Virus record (IMG/VR): IMGVR_UViG_3300030110_004035
Location: 9,853 to 36,061 of that record
Reading direction: 5' to 3' (one strand)
Source: a virus
DNA length: 26,209 nt
Shown here: positions 9,032-26,209 of the stretch, one piece after another
How the letters are laid out: every line of letters begins with the position of its first letter
Numbering within the stretch: the first letter of the stretch is position 1
Notes under the pieces: generated by a model
The model's input: only the letters and a program-made list of their open reading frames with translations
What the model was told of the DNA's origin: nothing
The model's database searches: none
Made by a program: the position numbers and the translations under genes

Positions 9032-10845
9032 TGGCTGCCAATACAGAATTTTCGGTTGCCAACTTAGAGTTTGATACAATTAAGTCAAATTTGCAAACCT
9101 TTATGGAAGGTCAAGCAATATTTGCTGATTATAACTTTACAGGCTCTGCTTTGAGCACATTGTTGGATGTTCTTGCATACAATACATATTACAATAACGT
9201 ATACTTAAATCATGTTGCAACAGAGATGTTTTTGGATAGTGCACAACTGAGAGATAGTGTATATTCAATTGCAAAGACGCTCAACTACTTACCAAGATCA
9301 TATAGATCATCTGTAGCATTTATCAACATAGATGTCAACCCTACTTCTAATCCTCATAGTATTACTATTCCAAGACTAACAGCCTTCACATCTACAGTTG
9401 GTGATAACACATATACGTTTTCAACTAATACTGATATAACAGTATTTGCAAACAATAGTTACTTAGCATCTAATGTTGCAATATATGAAGGCGAAATCAT
9501 ACAAGAAGCATTCCTAGTTTCAAATACTTCACCTAACACCCAGCAATTTATAATTAATAACTTTGATGTTGATGTAACTAGTTTAACGTGTAAAGTACGT
9601 ACTTCAAACACGGATAGTACAAACAGTGAGTACACTAGAGCTAACAGTCTATTTGGTTTAACAGCTACAAGTAATGTATTCTTTGTTGAACCTTCTACTA
9701 ATGGTACATATAAAGTAGTATTTGGAAACGGTACATTTGGAAGAAACTTAGCAAACAATAACCTGGTTGAGTTAACATATAGAGTATCTTCTGGTACTGA
9801 TCCAAATGGAGCTAATAGTTTTTCTGCCTCTTCTGTAGCTGGAGAACCAGCAACTATATCATTGGTTTCAAGAGCTACTAATGGTGATGAATTCCAAGAC
9901 TTAGATGACATTAAGTTTGCAGCTCCAAGAGCATTAGCAGTTCAAGAAAGAGCTGTTACTAAAGAAGATTACATAACATTAGCTAAAAATGAATTTAGTG
10001 ATATTACATCAATGCATGTCTACGATGGTGCAGATGAACCAACTCCACAATTTGGTGTAGTTAAGTTAGCTGTAAGAAGTGCATCTTTTGATAATCTTCC
10101 ATCAGTTCTTAAAACTCAAATAGTTAACTTCTTAAAACCTAAGATGCCAATTGGTGTAAGAGCTGAAGTAATAGATCCAGACTATATTAATGTTGTAGTA
10201 GATTCAACAGTTAAATTTGATAAAAATGCTACTTTAAAAACATTAGGTGAAATACAAACATTAGTTTCAGATGCTATTGTTACATTCAATTCTGATAATC
10301 TTAATAAGTTTGATTCAACCCTTCGTAAAAGTAAGTTAGTTGAAAAGATTAATGAAGCTGATCTATCTATTGTAAGTAATGAAATGACGGTAAGGATTAG
10401 AAAGTCTATAGGTCCACAAGCTGGTGTTTCATTTACTAAAACATTAGAGTTTAACCAACCACTAAAAGCTGATAACCCTGTAGATGAGTTAACACAAGAT
10501 ACTCATATTGGTAAATCAACACCTGCGCTATCTTCAGAAGTATTTGTATACAATAGTATCGAAGGAGCTTCTTTGAGAGATAATGGTGCTGGTGTGTTAC
10601 AAGTTGTTACTGTTTCAGAAGATGACTTGGTTATATTGGCTCCTGATATTGGTACAATTAATTATGAAACAGGTTCAGTAACTGTATCTAACTTGGTTAT
10701 TACATCGTTTGCATCTGGAGCTACATCAGGCAACTTAAAAGTGTTTGTAAGGCCAGTTGATCCAGATGTCTTTGGTGCTCGAAATGATCTTGTGTTAATC
10801 AGACCTCAAGATACAACAATTACAATCAGAGAGTTGAGATTGTAA
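9031..10845 (+). CDS. 6: Baseplate wedge protein gp6 (gpJ-like)
   Basis: A 604-aa protein (T4 gp6 is 660 aa). The N-terminal region, about residues 8-95, reads EFDTIKSNLQTFMEGQAIFA, SALSTLLDVLAYNTYYNNVY and AQLRDSVYSIAKTLNYLPRS. This is the family's helical core, in which most myoviruses have L.d..ay...y......E.fl.tA. Residues about 290-345 (AAPRALAVQERAVTKEDYIT followed by LAKNEFSDITSMHVYDGAD) match the gpJ motif at which domain III starts. The C-terminal part after about 490 is beta-rich. gp6 dimers link the six wedges into the inner baseplate ring and contact gp25, gp53 and gp7. Starts and stops overlap both neighbours by one base (TAATG), indicating coupled translation. Confidence 0.92.
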   Translation: MAANTEFSVANLEFDTIKSNLQTFMEGQAIFADYNFTGSALSTLLDVLAYNTYYNNVYLNHVATEMFLDSAQLRDSVYSIAKTLNYLPRSYRSSVAFINIDVNPTSNPHSITIPRLTAFTSTVGDNTYTFSTNTDITVFANNSYLASNVAIYEGEIIQEAFLVSNTSPNTQQFIINNFDVDVTSLTCKVRTSNTDSTNSEYTRANSLFGLTATSNVFFVEPSTNGTYKVVFGNGTFGRNLANNNLVELTYRVSSGTDPNGANSFSASSVAGEPATISLVSRATNGDEFQDLDDIKFAAPRALAVQERAVTKEDYITLAKNEFSDITSMHVYDGADEPTPQFGVVKLAVRSASFDNLPSVLKTQIVNFLKPKMPIGVRAEVIDPDYINVVVDSTVKFDKNATLKTLGEIQTLVSDAIVTFNSDNLNKFDSTLRKSKLVEKINEADLSIVSNEMTVRIRKSIGPQAGVSFTKTLEFNQPLKADNPVDELTQDTHIGKSTPALSSEVFVYNSIEGASLRDNGAGVLQVVTVSEDDLVILAPDIGTINYETGSVTVSNLVITSFASGATSGNLKVFVRPVDPDVFGARNDLVLIRPQDTTITIRELRL

Positions 10846-15307: not shown

Positions 15308-18300
15308 ATGTCAAATTCTCTTGATACCAATTTAAATACAACTCCATACTTTGACGATTATGCTGCCAATAGCCAGCATCATAGAGTACTGTTTAAGCCT
15401 TCTGTTCCAGTTCAGGCAAGAGAGCTAACACAACTACAAACTATTCTTCAATCCCAAGTTGAAAAGTTTGGTGATAACATTATTAAGAATGGTAGTATTG
15501 TTAGTGGTTGTTCATTTACTACAAGCAAAATTAACTTTGTAAAATTAACCGATAGAGATTCAAGTGGTGATACTTATGTAATCACAGATTTTGCAAACGG
15601 ATATACAGTACACGCTTCTTCAAATTTGACTTTCCAAACTATAGATACAAAATCTGGTTTTGAGATTACAAATCCAGATTTGAACACATTGTATGGTAGA
15701 TATATCAATTCAGGAAATTCTAGTGGAGTTCAAAAAGATGAATTTGCTCCTGGTGATACAATTATATTCTACCCTTCTAATGGACAAATATCTAATACAT
15801 TTACTATCAATGACGGTGGTGCTGCTTATACAAATGGTGACGCCTTGGTATTTGCCTCACAAAGAGGTATCAATGCAACTGCTAATGTAACTACAAATAG
15901 TACTGGAGGAATCACAGCTGTAACATTGATTACAGCAGGCCAAGATTATAGATACGATGATATTCCAGCTGTCACCGTAACATCATCTGGTGGTAGTGGT
16001 GCTAACATCTCAGCAACAATTAACTCAACAGCTTCACTTGTTATTGCAAATACTACGTTTAACAGAACTGGTGATGATAGCTTTAATTTTAACACGGTAG
16101 GGCAAACTTTAAGAGTTACAGTTTCTGATGGTATCATTTATCAAAAAGGCCACTTTGTTGATGTATTTGCACAAGGTGTTCAAGTAAAGGATTATGATCA
16201 CAGGCCTAATAACTTCTCAGTTGGTTTTACAACTACTGAATCAATTGTTAACAGCTCAGCTAATAGTTCATTATTAGACAACGCTGCTGGATTCAATAAT
16301 GAGAATGCTCCTGGTGCAGATAGATTAAAATTAACTCCTACACTAGTTAGCAAGTCAAATGCAGATGCTGCTGCAGCAAACAACTTCTTAACATTAATGA
16401 AATTTACAGATGGCCGAGCACAAGTAATTAAAGAAGACACACAATTTTCAAAACTTGGTGAGGAGTTGGCAAGAAGAACATATGAAGAAAGTGGCGACTA
16501 TGTTGTTAGGCCTTTTTCATTTACTACAGAAGACTTAGAAGGTAATAGTACGTTTGATCACGTCGTTGTTGGTGCTGGTAAAGCATACGTAAAAGGTTAT
16601 CGTAATGAGATGAGAACAGCTGGTCGTATAAGAATTAGAAAAGGTTTAGATACAGCTAACGTTGAAAATGCTACAGTAAGTCAAAGTTATGGTAACTATA
16701 TTATTGTTGATGAATTCTTAGGTTCATTTGATTTCAACACAGGTGCAGAAGTTAAGTTACTAGACACAGCTGGTAACAGAATATCAACATGCCCAGCTGG
16801 ATCAGCTGAAACAGTTCCGTCCACAAATACTGCTACTGCTGTATCTGGATCCGCGCCTACTTACTCTGGTACTATTATTGGTACTGCAAGAGTCAGATCA
16901 GTAAAGTACGAAGATAATACACCAGGTACATCAAGTGGACAATATAGATTATATCTCTTTGATATACAAATGAATCAAGGTAGAGCTTTCTCATCAACAA
17001 GAGCCATTTCTTATTTTACTGGATCTAATGCTGGTGTTGGTTTTGCTGATGTAGTTCTTAGAGATGGTGCTGCTAGACTAACAGATACTAATTTAAGAAA
17101 GTTCGTTATTCCTCTTGGTGTAAAAGGTTTAAAAACATTTAACCACAAAGCAGCAAACGAAGGAACATATACGTATAGTACTATTTCAACAGGTACTGTT
17201 GCAACAAATGGTACAGTACAAATTGCTCTATCTGGCAACCAGATATTTGATTATACAGCAAGTAGCTATCTGTCTTCTGATGAAGAAAATGATTTCATCA
17301 TTGTTGCAAACAATTCTTCTGCTCAGACAGTTACGTTAACTGGTACAGTATCTACTAGTGGTAATGTTGTTACTGGTTCTGGTACATCATTTACAGCTGA
17401 GTATCAAGTTGGAGATACAATTAGAGTTACTGATGCTCAAGATGAATTGATTACTGGTATTACAAATGGTACACATCTAACTACTCTACAAGCATTTACT
17501 TCTTCTGTTAGTGGTAAAGCACATAGAAGATTATATGTTGCTGATAAATCTATTCATTTACAAAACAATACTGCAGCTAATGTTCAAATCAGTTCTGACC
17601 AAGGTACTGCTACACTCAACATAACTCGTGGTAAGAATCTTGAATCAACACTACCAGTTGTAATTAAACACAATGTTCAAAAACGTGAGTCATTACAAAG
17701 AAACAAAACGCTTTCAGCAAACACATATGTAAAAGTAAATTGTGCTACTAATGCAAAAACATCAGTAGGTCCTTGGAGTTTAGGTATTCCTGATGTGTTT
17801 GATATTCAAAAGGTATATGTAAAGTATGATAACTTTACAAGTATTGAAGCTGATGCTAATGATCAAACAAGTCAGTTTGAGTTAATTAGAAATCAACAAG
17901 ATGGATTCTATAACTTATCTAAGTTAAAACTCAAGCCAGATGCATCTAATACTACAATTAATAGCACAGCTAGAATTCTTGTTAGCCTTAGGAGCTTCCA
18001 AAATAGTGGTAGTGGATTGGGTTACTACTCAGTTGATAGCTATCCTATTGACGATGATACTGATACACTTCCTGTTGATAAAATTAGAACAGAAGACATT
18101 CCTATCTATTCTTCTCCACTAGACGGTTCTACTGTTGATCTAAGAGATGCTATTGACTTTAGACCTCATGCTGCTAACACAGCTAATACAACAAACGCTA
18201 CAACAGCTGCTGCAGCTACAACGAACCCAGCTAACACTGTTTCGTTTAGTGGTGAGCAATACTTTGCTGCTCCTGGTAAGAGAATGACAGTTGATTATCA

Positions 18301-21300
18301 ACACTTCTTACCAAGAATAGATAAGATTGTATTATCACCTCAAGGATATTTCCAAGTTGTTGAAGGTCAGTCTGCTGGACGTCCTGTTCCTCCACAAGAC
18401 TTACCAAATGCAATGACACTTGCAATTGCACAAATACCTGTCCATCCTTCTTTGCCAAGTAAAACTGCACAAGAAAAAGCAAGATTAGATTATCAATACA
18501 AATTAGTTAATAAGCAGCAACGTAACTTCACAATGAAAGACATTGGTCAAATTGATCAAAGCGTCAAGAAATTACAATATTATACATCTTTGAATTTATT
18601 GGAACAACAAGCTGTTGATTTGGTGATCCCATCTGCTGCAAATACTTCTCTTGAGAGGTTCAAAAACGGAATACTTGTTGATAATTTCTTAGATAAAACT
18701 GTTGCATCATTAGTTGATAGTGAGTTTAAAGCCGGCTATGATCACGCTGCAGGTGTATTGCAAACTAGACAAAGAAACAATGTTATTGACATTACACCAA
18801 ACAGTCATGCTAATACAGTCAAAACTGGTAATCTTATCACTTTAGATTATGAGCATGTGGCTCAGTTTGAACAACGATCTGCTACAAGAACAAGAAACTC
18901 TGCTGAGTTTTATTGGAGATATAAAGGTAGAATAACACTATTCCCTGACTATGATAACTTTATGGATGTTAGACATCCTCCATCAAATGACTTTCACGTC
19001 GAGTTAGATTTAACACAAGGTACAAGAAGTCTATTAGATAGTATTAAAGACATTGAAGCAATTCAAGAGCCTCGCACAGATGTTATTGGTGATACTTCTT
19101 CAACGTCTAGTTTAGGTACAACAACAAATACTACAACCTCTGTAAGATCACAACCGGTTAGTGGTGGTACTAATGCTGTACAAACTACAGCTGTAGAAAC
19201 AGTTGAGAGTTTTGAAACTATTAGAACAATTACTAGACAAAGTAGTCAAAACCAATTTAACACTCAAGAAGTTAATAACACTCAAACAGTTGGTGAATTT
19301 GTTAGAGATATATCTTTCAACCCATTCATCAGAGAACAATTTATTTATTTCCATGCAACTGGTGTAAAACCAAACACTAGACATTATGTTTATTTTGATT
19401 CTAAACAAGTTGATGCACAATGTCAACCAGCTACTGTTGATGCTGATGATACAATAGAAGCAGCAAACTTCCGTACAACAGGAGCACTAGGTGACGCTAT
19501 AACATCAACTGCTGATGGTGAATTGTTCGCACTGTTCCATCTACCTTCTAGAACATACCCAGTTGGTGAAAGAGAACTTGTTGTTTCTGATAAAAGTACA
19601 ACAGACGCTGCATTACGTAGTACAATGTCTTCAGCTGGTGGAACATTCAATGCTTACAATTTTGGTATTGATAAATCTAGCATTCAACTTACTACTAAAC
19701 AATTGAATGTTTCTAAGTCAAGAGTTGTTACAGGAACATCTGTTGAGACTAGTGCAACAAGAAGTGCAAGATCCCAAACAGCTACATCATCAGCAGTGGT
19801 TGGGTTTACTCCTAATCCTCCACCTTCTCCTCCTGTTCCAGTGAGGGCACCAAATGTTGACCCAACGTCTCCAGAACTTAATCAGCGAGGTGATGACTCA
19901 ATTGGTGATGGAGATGATGGAGATGGTGGTGATGATCCAATATCACAGACTTTCATTATCAAAGATCAAGATGATGATGTAGGAATGTATATTACCAAAA
20001 TGGATCTATATTTTCAATCTAAAGATTCAAACCTTGGGGTAACTGTTCAACTTAGAACAACAGAAAATGGATTCCCATCATCTAAAATTATGCCTTATGG
20101 TGAAGTTCATTTAAGATCTGCTGATGTAAATGTAAGTACAGATGGCACAACAGCTACTACTGTTACATTTCCTTCACCTGTCTTTGTTGCTGCTCAACAG
20201 GAATATTGTTTTGTGGTTATGCCTGATGGTAATAATCCTAACTATAATCTCTGGGTTAGAAAAACTGGAGAAGCTGATAAGACAACAGGAACTATATTGA
20301 ACAGAGATGGTTTTGATGGTATTATGTTCTTATCTTCTAACAATAGAGCTTGGAAACCATTCCAGGATGAAGATATTAAGTTTACCATTTATCGAGCTAA
20401 CTTTTTATCAAGACAAGGTACAGTAGATTATCAAAACCATGATATGGAGTTCTTTACACTGTCTAGTATTAATGGTAACTTTACACAAGGTGAGAGAATC
20501 TTTAAGTACGACAATAGTGCAAACATTACTGGTAATGTAGCATTTAGTTCAACAAGTGAAACAGTAACTGGTACAGGAACAGCTTTCTCTACAGACTTAG
20601 CTGTTGGCAACTTCATTGCTCTAACAAATGGTACATCCCACTCTGTCAGAAAAGTTACAGCAATTGCAAACAATACAAGTTTAACAGTTCAAGGTTTCCC
20701 TGACATTACAGTTTCAAGTGGTGATGCTCAATTGACTCCTTCTGCTGAAGTGTTTTATTACGAACAAACAGATCAGTTAAAAACAATGCACGCTGCTTTG
20801 TCAACAGCAACTAATTCAACATTCTTATTCAATAACACAAGTGTTATTATTGGATCTGATAGTGAAGCAAACGCTACCGTTACAACAGTTGATGATCTTA
20901 ATGTAACGGCATTTGATAACTTGATGTATAAGATTGAGCCTTCTGGAACACAAATTGTACAGTTTGCTCAATGTAATACTGCTTCAGGTCAAACTTCAAA
21001 CACTGCTTATCCAATGAACAATAGAAACAGATTAAAAGAAGTTGGTATTATAAAGAGTCATTCTAATGAAATTGTAACTGGTACTGGTAAGTCTTGGAAA
21101 CATGTATTCCAATTCAATACAGACCATTCAAAAGTCTCACCTGTTATTGACGACTCTGTAAGTAATATTTTAAGGGTTGAGAACTTAATTAACAATAGTA
21201 ACACAAATGAGCATTTACCTCAAACTGGTAATGCAACAGCTAAATATGTGTCAAAAGTTGTTACTCTTGATGATGGACTAGATGCAGAAGACTTAAAAGT

Positions 21301-21895
21301 TTTTCTAACTGCAACTAAACCTGGTGCTGCTGAGATTGAAGTTTATGGTAGAGTATCTCACGAACTAGAGAGCGATCCGTTTATTGACAGGCATTGGACA
21401 AAGCTAACACAAGTTGGTACTGCTCAACAAACTGCTGCTGAAGTAGATGAGTTCTTAGAGTTTGAATATGAATTACCTGCTACACCTCCTTCAACTGCAT
21501 TGGTTGGTAAAGGGTTAGCAGATGCAGCTAACAACTTAATTGCAACAACAGACACACAAGCATCTGCACTTGAAGTTGGTGATCTTGTAAAGATTGTTAA
21601 CACATCAGCTTCTATTGACTATCAAATTGAAACAGTTACAGCTGTCAATAGTACAGTTATTACAGTTGGTAATGACATTAGTTTTGATAACACACAAGCA
21701 GATTTGTTTAAAATTGATACACCACAAACAGCATTTAAGGATCCACAAAATTCTAAGATTGCAACTTATTACAACTCAGCACAGAATAAGTTTGATACTT
21801 ACAAACAATTCCAATTGAAGATTGTAATGTTGAGTAACAATGCTGCTAGAGTACCTAGAATACAAAACTTTAGAGCTATAGCAACGAGTATTTGA
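15308..21895 (+). CDS. Giant DUF4815-type baseplate/tail fibre structural protein, 2195 aa
   Basis: A 2195-aa protein with an excellent ribosome binding site (AGAGGAAAG). Its N-terminus (YFDDYAANSQHHRVLFKPSV, VQARELTQLQTILQSQVEKFG, IIKNGSIVSGC) is the DUF4815 hallmark. After this come a Gly-Tyr turn module (about 170-235), a central helical and beta part with repeated DLRDAIDFRPHA and YFAAPGKRMTVDYQHFLPRI motifs (about 955-1020), and a Pro-rich then Asp/Gly-rich hinge at about 1502-1548. A conserved DPISQTFIIKDQDDDVGMYI region with TKMDLYFQSKD follows, and then a C-terminal beta part. A small module of the type V.TGTGT.F...L.VGN.I occurs near 680, 1741 and 2088. It occupies the T4 gp9-gp10 position, so I infer a large baseplate-periphery protein to which fibres attach. 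It is not a recognised enzyme. Confidence 0.88.
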   Translation: MSNSLDTNLNTTPYFDDYAANSQHHRVLFKPSVPVQARELTQLQTILQSQVEKFGDNIIKNGSIVSGCSFTTSKINFVKLTDRDSSGDTYVITDFANGYTVHASSNLTFQTIDTKSGFEITNPDLNTLYGRYINSGNSSGVQKDEFAPGDTIIFYPSNGQISNTFTINDGGAAYTNGDALVFASQRGINATANVTTNSTGGITAVTLITAGQDYRYDDIPAVTVTSSGGSGANISATINSTASLVIANTTFNRTGDDSFNFNTVGQTLRVTVSDGIIYQKGHFVDVFAQGVQVKDYDHRPNNFSVGFTTTESIVNSSANSSLLDNAAGFNNENAPGADRLKLTPTLVSKSNADAAAANNFLTLMKFTDGRAQVIKEDTQFSKLGEELARRTYEESGDYVVRPFSFTTEDLEGNSTFDHVVVGAGKAYVKGYRNEMRTAGRIRIRKGLDTANVENATVSQSYGNYIIVDEFLGSFDFNTGAEVKLLDTAGNRISTCPAGSAETVPSTNTATAVSGSAPTYSGTIIGTARVRSVKYEDNTPGTSSGQYRLYLFDIQMNQGRAFSSTRAISYFTGSNAGVGFADVVLRDGAARLTDTNLRKFVIPLGVKGLKTFNHKAANEGTYTYSTISTGTVATNGTVQIALSGNQIFDYTASSYLSSDEENDFIIVANNSSAQTVTLTGTVSTSGNVVTGSGTSFTAEYQVGDTIRVTDAQDELITGITNGTHLTTLQAFTSSVSGKAHRRLYVADKSIHLQNNTAANVQISSDQGTATLNITRGKNLESTLPVVIKHNVQKRESLQRNKTLSANTYVKVNCATNAKTSVGPWSLGIPDVFDIQKVYVKYDNFTSIEADANDQTSQFELIRNQQDGFYNLSKLKLKPDASNTTINSTARILVSLRSFQNSGSGLGYYSVDSYPIDDDTDTLPVDKIRTEDIPIYSSPLDGSTVDLRDAIDFRPHAANTANTTNATTAAAATTNPANTVSFSGEQYFAAPGKRMTVDYQHFLPRIDKIVLSPQGYFQVVEGQSAGRPVPPQDLPNAMTLAIAQIPVHPSLPSKTAQEKARLDYQYKLVNKQQRNFTMKDIGQIDQSVKKLQYYTSLNLLEQQAVDLVIPSAANTSLERFKNGILVDNFLDKTVASLVDSEFKAGYDHAAGVLQTRQRNNVIDITPNSHANTVKTGNLITLDYEHVAQFEQRSATRTRNSAEFYWRYKGRITLFPDYDNFMDVRHPPSNDFHVELDLTQGTRSLLDSIKDIEAIQEPRTDVIGDTSSTSSLGTTTNTTTSVRSQPVSGGTNAVQTTAVETVESFETIRTITRQSSQNQFNTQEVNNTQTVGEFVRDISFNPFIREQFIYFHATGVKPNTRHYVYFDSKQVDAQCQPATVDADDTIEAANFRTTGALGDAITSTADGELFALFHLPSRTYPVGERELVVSDKSTTDAALRSTMSSAGGTFNAYNFGIDKSSIQLTTKQLNVSKSRVVTGTSVETSATRSARSQTATSSAVVGFTPNPPPSPPVPVRAPNVDPTSPELNQRGDDSIGDGDDGDGGDDPISQTFIIKDQDDDVGMYITKMDLYFQSKDSNLGVTVQLRTTENGFPSSKIMPYGEVHLRSADVNVSTDGTTATTVTFPSPVFVAAQQEYCFVVMPDGNNPNYNLWVRKTGEADKTTGTILNRDGFDGIMFLSSNNRAWKPFQDEDIKFTIYRANFLSRQGTVDYQNHDMEFFTLSSINGNFTQGERIFKYDNSANITGNVAFSSTSETVTGTGTAFSTDLAVGNFIALTNGTSHSVRKVTAIANNTSLTVQGFPDITVSSGDAQLTPSAEVFYYEQTDQLKTMHAALSTATNSTFLFNNTSVIIGSDSEANATVTTVDDLNVTAFDNLMYKIEPSGTQIVQFAQCNTASGQTSNTAYPMNNRNRLKEVGIIKSHSNEIVTGTGKSWKHVFQFNTDHSKVSPVIDDSVSNILRVENLINNSNTNEHLPQTGNATAKYVSKVVTLDDGLDAEDLKVFLTATKPGAAEIEVYGRVSHELESDPFIDRHWTKLTQVGTAQQTAAEVDEFLEFEYELPATPPSTALVGKGLADAANNLIATTDTQASALEVGDLVKIVNTSASIDYQIETVTAVNSTVITVGNDISFDNTQADLFKIDTPQTAFKDPQNSKIATYYNSAQNKFDTYKQFQLKIVMLSNNAARVPRIQNFRAIATSI

Positions 21896-22113: not shown

Positions 22114-22773
22114 ATGGCAAAGACATCTTATTTGGGAGCAAACGTAGCAACCGCGACTGATACCTTTAGAGAGTGGATCAATAGAACTAATCAATTGGTC
22201 TATGATGCTGGTACAATCGTTGTTACTGTTGGTGCTGTTTCTACCCCAAATTCAACAAACCATACAATTACTTCTGGCAACGGTTATGTCAACGGAACAT
22301 TTTCTGCTAATACACTAGCAGTTACTCAGGTTCTCAGAGGGGGAACTGTTCCTACCGCAGGAGTATTAACTCTCGGTTCTAATGTTCATCCTTCTGCAAA
22401 TGTGACTCATGAGATTGGTAATACAACCATGATGATGGGTAATGGATACTTTAAGAATATTATTAGTGCTGGTGATGTTGAAGCTAATTACTCTTCAGAT
22501 AAGAGATTAAAAATTGATTTGCAACAAATGGAAAATGCTCTTGAGGTTGTGAAAAACATAAATGGATATATGTTTAAGTGGGATACAGATGATGAGAAAA
22601 ATGGAAAAACAGACCTGGGTGTTATTGCCCAAGAAGTCCAAAAAGAGCTACCGTTTCTTGTGTCTACAAATGGAAATGGCAATCTCGCCGTCAAGTATCA
22701 GTCGTTGATTCCTTTATTAATCGAAGCAGTTAAAGAGCTGAGTAACCGGATCGAAGAACTGGAGAATAAGTAA
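22114..22773 (+). CDS. Short tail fibre with self-cleaving S74 intramolecular chaperone
   Basis: A 219-aa protein in three parts. Residues 1-35 (TDTFREWINRTNQLVYDAG) form an attachment helix seen in marine phage fibres. Residues about 36-125 are a short Thr/Asn/Gly-rich beta region. Residues about 127-219 are a Peptidase_S74 chaperone domain: SSDKRLKIDLQQMENALEVV, INGYMFKWDTD, LGVIAQEVQKELPFLV, and the helical end KYQSLIPLLIEAVKELSNRI. In this family a Ser-Lys dyad cuts at the Ser after the fibre trimer has folded; S128 and K133 have the expected +5 spacing. After cleavage the mature fibre would be only about 127 residues, very short. The start at 22114 has AGAGGATAAC. The stop overlaps the next start (TAATG). 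Confidence 0.9.
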   Translation: MAKTSYLGANVATATDTFREWINRTNQLVYDAGTIVVTVGAVSTPNSTNHTITSGNGYVNGTFSANTLAVTQVLRGGTVPTAGVLTLGSNVHPSANVTHEIGNTTMMMGNGYFKNIISAGDVEANYSSDKRLKIDLQQMENALEVVKNINGYMFKWDTDDEKNGKTDLGVIAQEVQKELPFLVSTNGNGNLAVKYQSLIPLLIEAVKELSNRIEELENK

Positions 22774-23068: not shown

Positions 23069-23106
23069 AGAGTCTTAGATGTCGACTTCGTACGCACCAA
23101 GACTCT
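23069..23106 (+). promoter_or_regulatory. Inverted repeat enclosing the start codon of the giant fibre gene
   Basis: AGAGTCTT at 23069-23076 is perfectly complementary to AAGACTCT at 23099-23106. The 22-nt loop contains the ATG at 23079. The left arm includes the last bases of the ribosome binding site AGGAAGAG (23065-23072). Folding in mRNA would hide part of that site, so the stem could damp or time translation of the fibre. Eight perfect pairs with a 22-nt loop is a moderate structure and chance cannot be excluded. Confidence 0.4.
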
Positions 23107-26100
23107 ACGCAAAAGAATATGCTGGAGGAGACAGAGTTTTCGAGGTGTCCTATACGGGACAACGAACTCGTACTCCTTTCATCGTATACACTAATGCGTT
23201 CCATGGATTCTATAATGGATTCCAAGGTGTCTATACGAACACACGTACATCTACTCTTGCTTGGCAATCAAACTTTGCAGGCACATATGTAAAATCATAT
23301 GAAGGCTTTCTCAATTACAACTCAATTGATACTGCCACATACACTAAGAACTATGACAAAGCTAATGTAAACTTTGCTGGTACTAAAGGTTATCAAAAAG
23401 AATATGCTTCTGCAACTAAGCAACCAGATAGTATCTGGGCTGATGCAAACGTATTTGCAAACTATTCTGGTTCTTATAGTGCAGAAGTAAACTATTCAAG
23501 GATAGTAAACTTCCAAGGTGTTGGTGGATATGATGGAGCTGCTTATACAGCTACTTACACAAACTATCAAAACTATGTTCCAACATATAGTGGTTTTATT
23601 GGGTTTGTAGGATATACAAAAGACTATGTTGGTACCATTAGTTACAATAAAGATTATCAAAAGACATATGTTGGTACTACAATATACCAAGCAGAATGGC
23701 AACGGACTTATACAAAAGCGTATACCGGTGTAGGTGAGTATGTAGGACAGTACACAAAAGTTTACACTGGTTTAGCAGCTTACAATGCTGGCCCTTGGGT
23801 TGGTGCAACTAGTTTTGTGGCATTCAATAAAGAGTATGGTGGAGCTATTGCATACCTCAATGCAGCAGGTGAAGGTTTTACTGGCTTTGTAGATTACGTA
23901 AAAACATATCAAGCTGTAAGATTTTGGACTACAGAAGTAAACTATACAAAAGTTTGGGATGGTAATTATATAGGAGCAAAGGACTATCTCAAAGATTATG
24001 TTGGCCGAGCTTCATATGCTGCAGATGAAAACTTTCATAAGACATACACTAAGACATATCAAACAGATGGTACCTTTTCAAAAATATGGCAAGGACAGCT
24101 TGCTTTTGAAGGACAAATAAGTTATGATGGAGCAGTGTATACTAAAACTTATGAAGGTGATAAAGATTATGCGGCTCTAACAAATTTCTTAGGAGGTGTA
24201 TCATACACTGGTACATATAGAGGTTTAGGTGATTCCTATAGAGCAGCTGCATATGCTAAGGATTATGAAAAACTATATGTTGGTGATTACACCAAAACAT
24301 ATGAAAAGAATTGGGTTAAGACGTATGAGAAAGATTACGTTGCTGCTTACAATAAAGACTATTTAAAGAACTATGTTAAGTTGTATCAAGGTGAGTATGC
24401 ACAAACATATCTCAAATCATATCTTAAAGACTACGTTGCTACTTACACCAAGAACTGGGTTAAGTTATATGAAAAGGCATATGATAAAACATACGAAGGT
24501 TCTTTTGATGGCAACTATGTAAAAGACTATACAAAGGTATGGAGTAAGAACTACGTTAAGACTTTTACAAAAGCCTGGGTTGGTGTTTACAATAAAGATT
24601 ACGTAAAAGCATATGATAAGATATATGAAAAAGTGTGGTCTAAGAACTATGATAAGATTTATGTTGGTCCTGTTTTCTATGGTGGCTTTGCTCATGGAAG
24701 TCAGACTACTAACTATACAAAGATATGGACAAAAGATTGGGGTGCTTCCTATACAAAGATATGGGAAAAAACATATACGAAAGCATACGAAGGATCCTTT
24801 GATGGCAACTATGATAAAGACTATGTAAAAGATTACACAACAGTTTATCAAAAGACTTACACGAAAGCCTGGGTAGGAGTATATACAAAAGAGTGGGTCA
24901 AAGGTTACGAGAAAGACTATGTAACAACTTACGACAAAGCCTGGGTTAAATCATATGATGAGTCATGGGCTAAGGATTGGATCAAAGCCTATACTGCTGC
25001 ATATGATCAAGTTTGGAATAAAGATTATGTTGCAACATACGTCAAAGCATATGAGAAGAACTACGTAAAAGATTATGTTGCTACATACAACAAAGATTGG
25101 GTTAAAGCATACGATAAGAACTGGATCAAGACTTACTCAAAAGATTATGGTAAGACTTGGAACAAAGACTATGTTAAAAACTATGATACAGAATATGAAA
25201 AAGCATGGTCCAAAGCATATGTCAAAACATACACAGGAGAATACACAGGTAGCTTTGTTGGTGTATATCAAAAAGCATATGGTAAGTCTTGGGTTGGTGT
25301 ATATGAAAAAGACTACAATCAAACGTATGAGAAGGACTATGTTGCTGCATACGGTAAGTCATGGGTTGGTGTTTACAATAAAGACTATGTAAGAGTTTAC
25401 CACAATCCATATGAAGACTTTAACACAACTGTGTTGATGTTGAATGCTGAAGTACCAAACGCAACAGATGGTGATACAGAGATAATAGATCTGTCTGATC
25501 AGGGTAACCATGTAACCACAGTACATGGTAGTGCAGCAAAGAGTACAGATCAAAAGAAATTTGGTTCTGCTTCATTAGAAATTCCAAGTAGTGGATCAAG
25601 TGGCCTTACAATCAACTTTTCTGATGATGATTTTAATTTTGAGAACGAAGACTTTACAATTGAATTCTGGTTAAGAGCTCCTGGTACAAACAACGCAACA
25701 ATCTTAGAAGCATATGATTCATCTGACAATAGTGTCAAGTGGGCCATTAGAGGTAACAATGCATCAAGTCCAAGTGAGATAATATTCTACGAAGGTACTA
25801 ATGCAAGACTTACAGCCAATGACAACAGCCCTTGGTCGGCTGGTACATTTAACCATGTTGCAATTGTAAGAATAAGCAATACAATTAAAGTATACATCAA
25901 TGGTACTGCTGATGCTACAACATACACAACTGCGGCTAACTTAACAGGTGCAAATAGATTAGTAATTGGTAACAGACGTGACTTGGGTGCATCTATTGGT
26001 GGCTTCATTGACGATCTTAGAATAGACAAAGCCAATGGTAAGTATACTGGTAACTTCACTGTCACAGATAATGAAACAGCTAACGAACAAGTTAACACAG

Positions 26101-26209
26101 ACGATTGGCAGTCATTCCAAAAAGCATGGGTTAAAACTTACTCAAAAGATTATACAAAAGATTGGGTTAAGGCATATGGAAAGGCTTGGGTTGGCGTTTA
26201 TGAAAAAGA
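23079..26209 (+). CDS. Giant aromatic tetrapeptide-repeat fibre with inserted LamG lectin domain (3' end outside window)
   Basis: The frame is open from the ATG at 23079 (ribosome binding site AGGAAGAG, 6 nt spacing) to the window edge, 1043 residues with no stop. Residues 1-391 are Tyr/Trp/Phe-rich, with aromatics mostly 4 or 6 apart (YTKDYVGTISYNKDYQKTYV). Residues 392-531 are 35 perfect tetrads and 546-777 are 58 more, all of the form aromatic-x-K/G-x. Residues about 781-1000 form a LamG/concanavalin-like lectin fold: FTIEFWLRA near 859, WSAGTFNHVAIVRISNTIKV near 919, FIDDLRI near 976. Tetrads resume at 1013. I saw no cysteine. Position after the S74 fibre and the lectin domain suggest an adhesin or tail fibre. 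I know no named family for the repeat. No trimerisation or chaperone domain is visible because the C-terminus is missing. Confidence 0.9.
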   Translation, partial: MSTSYAPRLYAKEYAGGDRVFEVSYTGQRTRTPFIVYTNAFHGFYNGFQGVYTNTRTSTLAWQSNFAGTYVKSYEGFLNYNSIDTATYTKNYDKANVNFAGTKGYQKEYASATKQPDSIWADANVFANYSGSYSAEVNYSRIVNFQGVGGYDGAAYTATYTNYQNYVPTYSGFIGFVGYTKDYVGTISYNKDYQKTYVGTTIYQAEWQRTYTKAYTGVGEYVGQYTKVYTGLAAYNAGPWVGATSFVAFNKEYGGAIAYLNAAGEGFTGFVDYVKTYQAVRFWTTEVNYTKVWDGNYIGAKDYLKDYVGRASYAADENFHKTYTKTYQTDGTFSKIWQGQLAFEGQISYDGAVYTKTYEGDKDYAALTNFLGGVSYTGTYRGLGDSYRAAAYAKDYEKLYVGDYTKTYEKNWVKTYEKDYVAAYNKDYLKNYVKLYQGEYAQTYLKSYLKDYVATYTKNWVKLYEKAYDKTYEGSFDGNYVKDYTKVWSKNYVKTFTKAWVGVYNKDYVKAYDKIYEKVWSKNYDKIYVGPVFYGGFAHGSQTTNYTKIWTKDWGASYTKIWEKTYTKAYEGSFDGNYDKDYVKDYTTVYQKTYTKAWVGVYTKEWVKGYEKDYVTTYDKAWVKSYDESWAKDWIKAYTAAYDQVWNKDYVATYVKAYEKNYVKDYVATYNKDWVKAYDKNWIKTYSKDYGKTWNKDYVKNYDTEYEKAWSKAYVKTYTGEYTGSFVGVYQKAYGKSWVGVYEKDYNQTYEKDYVAAYGKSWVGVYNKDYVRVYHNPYEDFNTTVLMLNAEVPNATDGDTEIIDLSDQGNHVTTVHGSAAKSTDQKKFGSASLEIPSSGSSGLTINFSDDDFNFENEDFTIEFWLRAPGTNNATILEAYDSSDNSVKWAIRGNNASSPSEIIFYEGTNARLTANDNSPWSAGTFNHVAIVRISNTIKVYINGTADATTYTTAANLTGANRLVIGNRRDLGASIGGFIDDLRIDKANGKYTGNFTVTDNETANEQVNTDDWQSFQKAWVKTYSKDYTKDWVKAYGKAWVGVYEK
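24252..24671 (+). repeat. 35 uninterrupted 12-nt units encoding aromatic tetrads (block 1)
   Basis: Residues 392-531 divide exactly into 35 tetrapeptides, for example YAKD, YEKL, YVGD, YTKT, YEKN, WVKT. The first position is always aromatic: 28 Tyr, 5 Trp, 2 Phe. The third is Lys in 26 of 35 and otherwise Gly, Ala or Gln. There is no phase slip in 420 nt. At DNA level the copies are diverged, so the repeat is kept by selection on protein rather than being a fresh expansion. Confidence 0.92.
24495..24884 (+). repeat. Segmental duplication inside the tetrad array (98-residue spacing)
   Basis: EGSFDGNY followed 24 residues later by TKAWVGVY occurs at 24495-24590 and again at 24789-24884, with the same internal spacing. 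The two copies are 294 nt apart (98 codons) and the DNA is also similar (gaaggNtcNtttgatggcaa). The interval therefore looks like a higher-order repeat unit that includes the 14-residue break between blocks. Confidence 0.7.
24714..25409 (+). repeat. 58 uninterrupted 12-nt units encoding aromatic tetrads (block 2)
   Basis: After a 14-residue break (VFYGGFAHGSQTTN), residues 546-777 divide exactly into 58 tetrapeptides: 41 begin with Tyr, 15 with Trp and 2 with Phe. The third position is Lys in 37. Longer word repeats are embedded: WVGVY recurs, and YGKS-WVGV-Y occurs twice near the end. The block runs directly into the LamG domain. Confidence 0.92.

Follow-up and report, generated by a model that had tools for sequence, protein, structure and literature searches.

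An aromatic tetrapeptide repeat in giant, probable tail-fibre proteins of uncultured phages

Uncultured tailed phages encode a family of giant proteins, judged to be tail fibres, with a repeat in which every fourth residue is aromatic over hundreds of residues. The repeat was found in the window, that is, the whole stretch of 26,209 nucleotides analysed here (positions 9,853 to 36,061 of IMG/VR record IMGVR_UViG_3300030110_004035). It lies within an open reading frame, ORF A, that has no stop codon up to the end of the window, where the virus record (36,061 bp) also ends. The protein itself would be of a known kind, a receptor-binding fibre of a phage; what sets it apart is a repeat that has no name and, in its lineage, an unusual loop insertion. 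The features of ORF A and of two neighbouring open reading frames are collected in Table 1.

Table 1. Features of the fibre region, in window coordinates.
Feature	Position	Strand	Remarks
2,195-aa ORF between baseplate-wedge and fibre genes	15308..21895	+	phrog_358, a large family of unknown function
ORF upstream of ORF A, similar to C-terminal ends of tail fibres, including long-tail-fibre distal subunits	22114..22773	+	PHROGs 8215, 5668, 1699
ORF A, 5' portion of the gene for a giant, probable tail-fibre protein	23079..26209	+	1,043 residues, open at contig end
N-terminal region with irregular aromatic spacing	23079..24251	+	residues 1-391; kept in relatives
Repeat block 1, 35 strict aromatic-x-K-x units	24252..24671	+	residues 392-531
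14-residue interruption VFYGGFAHGSQTTN after YVGP	24672..24713	+	motif also seen between the blocks of relatives
Repeat block 2, 58 strict units	24714..25409	+	residues 546-777; Y778 also in phase
LamG / concanavalin A-like domain	25617..26024	+	residues 847-982; PF13385 (Laminin_G_3), 67.1 bits vs cut-off 27.6
Start of repeat block 3	26115..26209	+	from residue 1013; cut by contig end, continues in relative L003

In the 93 units of blocks 1 and 2, the first place is occupied by Tyr (69 units, or 70 with Y778), Trp (20), or Phe (4), and Lys stands at the third place in 63 units. The original prediction, made from the letters of this DNA, had given the same unit counts, residue tallies, and coordinates, and had stated that no unit breaks phase within a block. 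These statements are accurate; in 2,000 shuffles of the block residues (24.9% aromatics), the longest in-phase run had a mean of 4.0 and a maximum of 9. The VFYGGFAHGSQTTN break that separates the two blocks shifts the phase by 2. The predicted boundaries are correct for the strict blocks, but they cover only a small piece of the protein. In relatives, phase is kept without slip over up to 243 units.

The residue at the third place was surveyed in a Lys-rich set of 196 unique blocks (7,370 units), in which place 1 is Tyr, Trp, or Phe by definition of the blocks. Place 3 is Lys in 61% of these units, Gly in 16%, and Ala in 8%. The proportions are 68% Gly and 29% Arg in Phage C48C1, and 44 ORFs of the B type described below, taken from a separate scan, have 74% Gly. 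The constant rule is therefore aromatic-x-[K/R/G]-x, with an aromatic residue every four residues and a basic or small residue at place 3. The positively charged face that had been predicted is not a general property: since the place-3 residue differs between lineages, such a face is lineage-specific and mostly balanced by Asp and Glu. Indeed, because these acidic residues occupy places 2 and 4, the net charge is only about +0.14 per unit. Autocorrelation over the same 196 blocks gave no convincing octapeptide or longer period. Of the offsets from run to run, 309 are even and 152 odd, a bias in keeping with a beta structure, but related sequences share these offsets.

At the DNA level, 89 of the 93 units are distinct and their mean pairwise identity is 0.47. 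Between the window and its closest relative, viral contig L003, the repeats are 84% identical, with identities of 94.6% and 92.5% at places 1 and 3 vs. 74% and 76% at places 2 and 4, respectively, and synonymous sites are almost saturated. Each of the five changes at place 1 replaces one aromatic residue by another, whereas places 2 and 4 are free to vary. The repeat pattern is thus maintained by protein-level selection, as had been proposed from the divergence of the DNA copies. One could otherwise imagine a 12-bp tandem repeat kept by slippage and devoid of meaning for the protein, and length does change in whole units. When relatives are aligned, their repeats show 117 indels, 89 of which span a multiple of four residues, vs. 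5 of 18 elsewhere, an excess that is partly a consequence of the strict phase itself, and the related arrays of L006 and L009 differ in their repeats by 4- and 9-unit indels only. However, this explanation is already contradicted by the substitution pattern, the aromatic residues being kept in highly diverged units despite near-saturated synonymous sites, and a tandem-repeat finder detected no 12-bp array in the block. We regard it as extremely improbable.

Profile searches against Pfam, NCBIfam, and the characterised PHROGs gave no named repeat family for the blocks, in agreement with the original prediction; sub-threshold Pfam matches were to BNR (E 0.23) and YsdD (E 3.3). A weak match of the repeat region (E 8e-7) to PHROG 15773, a family of unknown function without a described repeat, is probably compositional. 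A description of an aromatic tetrapeptide repeat was not found in the literature; the pelagimyophage host recognition cluster occupies a comparable genome position, and the passages describing it do not mention such a repeat (PMC7029224).

The repeat is carried by only one of 50,697 phage records, that of Phage C48C1, and a protein search of 84,980 prokaryote species, represented by one genome each, gave no relative; in both cases, low-complexity filtering may hide some. Matches obtained by tblastn in a "structural protein" of Synechococcus phage S-RIM2 and in Vibrio phage F23s1 correspond to VTGN- or TYSTLIPG-type repeats without an aromatic ladder, and the remaining matches in phage records are false or limited to LamG. 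The S-RIM2 protein (L377:384-6122) has unrelated VTGN/LTGN tetrapeptides with Val or Leu at the repeating place and might be an analogue. Among the prokaryote DNA-pattern matches listed, ORFs with runs of at least 8 units are all unrelated low-complexity sequences, such as YFKS repeats in a DPANN archaeon. The latter case (KA27; L161:160-708) is an ORF of 183 residues with near-perfect YFKS repeats that looks like low-complexity DNA; no relation to the phage repeat is shown.

Upstream of ORF A lie gp6, other baseplate-wedge genes, a hub/lysozyme gene, and the tail-fibre C-terminus ORF, which together form a T4-like cluster. ORF A hence has the position of a tail-fibre gene within a tail-fibre/baseplate cluster. 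The gp6 protein of the window is only 35-36% identical to those of Pelagibacter phage HTVC008M, Caulobacter phage Cr30, and Sinorhizobium phages, and the lineage is therefore a deep T4-like one. The cyanophage marker psbA was not found in seven related records, all of which may be fragments.

The complete gene is present in L003. It encodes 3,297 residues, which comprise 22 runs totalling about 480 units, as well as a LamG domain and, at the C-terminus, a domain of the GP38 type, and ORF A is 87.6% identical to its first 1,042 residues. The LamG domain is located between repeat blocks. In the comparison of the window with L003, the LamG region (residues 820-995; window 25536-26063) has a synonymous divergence of 0.18, vs. 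0.59 for the N-terminal flank and 1.24 for the repeats, which suggests recent recombination at the level of the domain. Such recombination, together with the very large differences in length and composition between relatives, would suit a host-range diversification cassette, in which the repeat ORFs and the array inserted in the adhesin (see below) change fast by unequal recombination and vary the adhesin surface rather than its reach. Places 1 and 3 are, however, conserved, so that most change falls in places 2 and 4 and in length. We consider a diversification cassette improbable.

GP38 (Pfam) is the adhesin that tips the long tail fibres of T2-type phages. Six relatives with an intact C-terminal domain match PF05268 (GP38) with 29-52 bits (cut-off 25), and the head half of the domain in L003 does so with 36-42 bits. 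The C-terminal domain of complete homologues also matches phrog_2056, annotated "tail fiber protein; host specificity." An AlphaFold2 model of the domain from relative L132, of modest confidence (pLDDT 49), has the beta-helix and polyglycine-II sandwich of this fold. When compared with the PDB using Foldseek, the model retrieved only gp38 of phage PP01 (E 1e-5) and of Salmonella phage S16 (E 7e-3). Fold comparison gave Z scores of 12.4 to the former (9V85) and 12.3 to the latter (6F45), the next row being at 4.6. In a profile comparison (E 8e-6), the octaglycine of the domain falls on that of S16 gp38, a helix at residues 151-158 (glycine-rich motif 3, GRM3). A sequence-only search of the PDB with the GP38 domain missed gp38, which was recovered by Pfam, by profile comparison, and by fold search. 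As the window ORF is cut before this domain, its presence there is predicted from the 88% identical L003 protein.

Taken together, a tail-fibre gene position and a C-terminal adhesin in complete homologues make a fibre that reaches the host surface, as had been proposed, well supported. Gene order and domains likewise indicate that ORF A is probably present in the virion as a tail fibre.

The GP38 domain exists in two versions. In lineages other than that of the window (L132, L007, L065, L049, L022, L139, and L140), it is intact, with 120-143 residues after the octaglycine. In the window's clade (L003, L107/L005, L012, L028, L079, and L138), the domain is split right after the octaglycine by arrays of 111-259 of the tetrapeptide units; 962-1,455 residues then follow the octaglycine, and the second half of the domain resumes after the array. 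The same insertion site is found in several diverged contigs, which makes a single assembly error unlikely. On the S16 gp38 alignment, this site is the segment just after the GRM3 octaglycine helix. In PP01, loop-B (Q161-V170), in the region of the insertion, is one of five putative receptor-recognition loops (PMC12892980), and in S16 the variability of the distal loops tracks host range (PMC6851490). Judging from alignment and numbering, the loop that holds the array would correspond to PP01 loop-B.

In relatives whose contig spans both genes, a second repeat gene, B, starts within about 40 bp downstream of ORF A; in L003, it follows within 10 bp. When complete, B proteins begin with a sequence of the PLKI...GLQEM type, contain 12-664 units, and share a constant ending (LWVRTA and variants). 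Within the B gene of L003 (L003:18731-21163), a 26-residue super-repeat (six units plus two residues) occurs several times and is followed by an unbroken run of 79 units. A short version of B (355-420 aa, 17-34 Y-x-G-x units) with an LWVRxA-type end is present in many viral contigs (L280, L283, L287, L331, L345, and others). CDS0201 of Phage C48C1 (OQ984149, Kyanoviridae), a "hypothetical protein" of 3,347 residues, is a homologue of B.

In the mechanism that we propose, ORF A would be a single-polypeptide receptor-binding protein of the tail fibre of a T4-like phage, whose C-terminal GP38-type polyglycine adhesin would contact the host receptor. The aromatic-x-[K/R/G]-x units would form a regular, extended, and ordered structure, probably rich in beta strands, with each unit filling an equivalent site. 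The repeat would then act as a length-adjustable spacer that keeps the adhesin and the LamG domain apart from each other and from the anchored N-terminus. In the window's clade, the second array, which leaves and re-enters one loop of the adhesin, may extend or present this loop. Taken as a whole, the reading of ORF A as a tail-fibre receptor-binding protein of a T4-like phage, with a GP38-type C-terminus and a repeat acting as an ordered, length-adjustable spacer, seems to us reasonably probable.

The repeat could also be a flexible, low-complexity adhesive tether, in which aromatic and basic residues set at even intervals would stick directly to one another or to polysaccharide of the cell surface, as in other sticky proteins rich in Tyr and Lys. 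The repeat is nearly devoid of Pro and Cys, any array length is tolerated (see the range in B proteins), and the array inserted in the adhesin, having both ends in one loop, could well be a flexible or hairpin-like extension. Residues 388-640, modelled with AlphaFold2 as a monomer together with six relatives, gave a pLDDT of only 28.6, a value at which the helices of the model are meaningless. However, a monomer prediction of low confidence from seven sequences is not evidence of disorder, and a phase free of slip over 243 units, together with purifying selection at places 1 and 3, exceeds what a pattern of stickers needs. A tether of this kind appears unlikely, and we infer that an extended ordered spacer is the more likely of the two. 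A broader proposal, which we put forward only tentatively, is that Ar-x-[K/R/G]-x is a new class of repeat, extending up to 243 units, that would form a new ordered fibre, have its length changed in whole units, and be graftable into a loop of a polyglycine adhesin, which it would project from the tip of the fibre.

In uncultured phages of this group, the two tandem fibre genes take up as much as about 18 kb. An ordered repeat, if confirmed, would be a new motif for building fibres by a very simple rule, of use to structural biologists and in protein design, and the loop insertion is a natural experiment on the extension of a phage receptor-binding tip. The family also accounts for a set of giant "hypothetical proteins" and provides a signature by which the receptor-binding genes of uncultured phages can be recognised.

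Comparison with known systems shows both shared and distinct features. Collagen-like (Gly-x-y) and other named fibre repeats have in common with the present one a long regular repeat in a fibre. Unlike the collagen-like Gly-x-y, it has a period of 4 with an aromatic first place, Gly making up only 5% of block residues, and has no match in Pfam or NCBIfam. The LamG_3 domain (residues 847-982) is shared with phage baseplate and tail proteins, for example baseplate wedge proteins of Synechococcus phage ACG-2014f; in ORF A, however, it is a small insert between repeat blocks and the rest of the protein has no match to these proteins. C48C1 CDS0201 resembles B by its PLKI...LQE N-terminus, its aromatic tetrapeptides, and its ...LYVRVA C-terminus. 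It differs from the window protein by Gly or Arg in place of Lys at place 3 and by many units with a non-aromatic first place; stretches of S/T-R-T-S type lie between its aromatic units (L013:1617-11657). Finally, the C-terminal ~340-430 residues of ORF A homologues share their fold, octaglycine helix, and glycine-rich motifs with gp38 of T2-type phages (S16, PP01). T2-type gp38 is a separate cap seated on the gp37 trimer, whereas here the adhesin forms the C-terminal end of a giant repeat protein, in ORFs that reach 3,297 residues. The domain thus appears to work like gp38, to which it is homologous, without the whole of ORF A being a gp38. A further difference from T2-type gp38, seen in the window's clade, is that one adhesin loop holds a whole repeat array.
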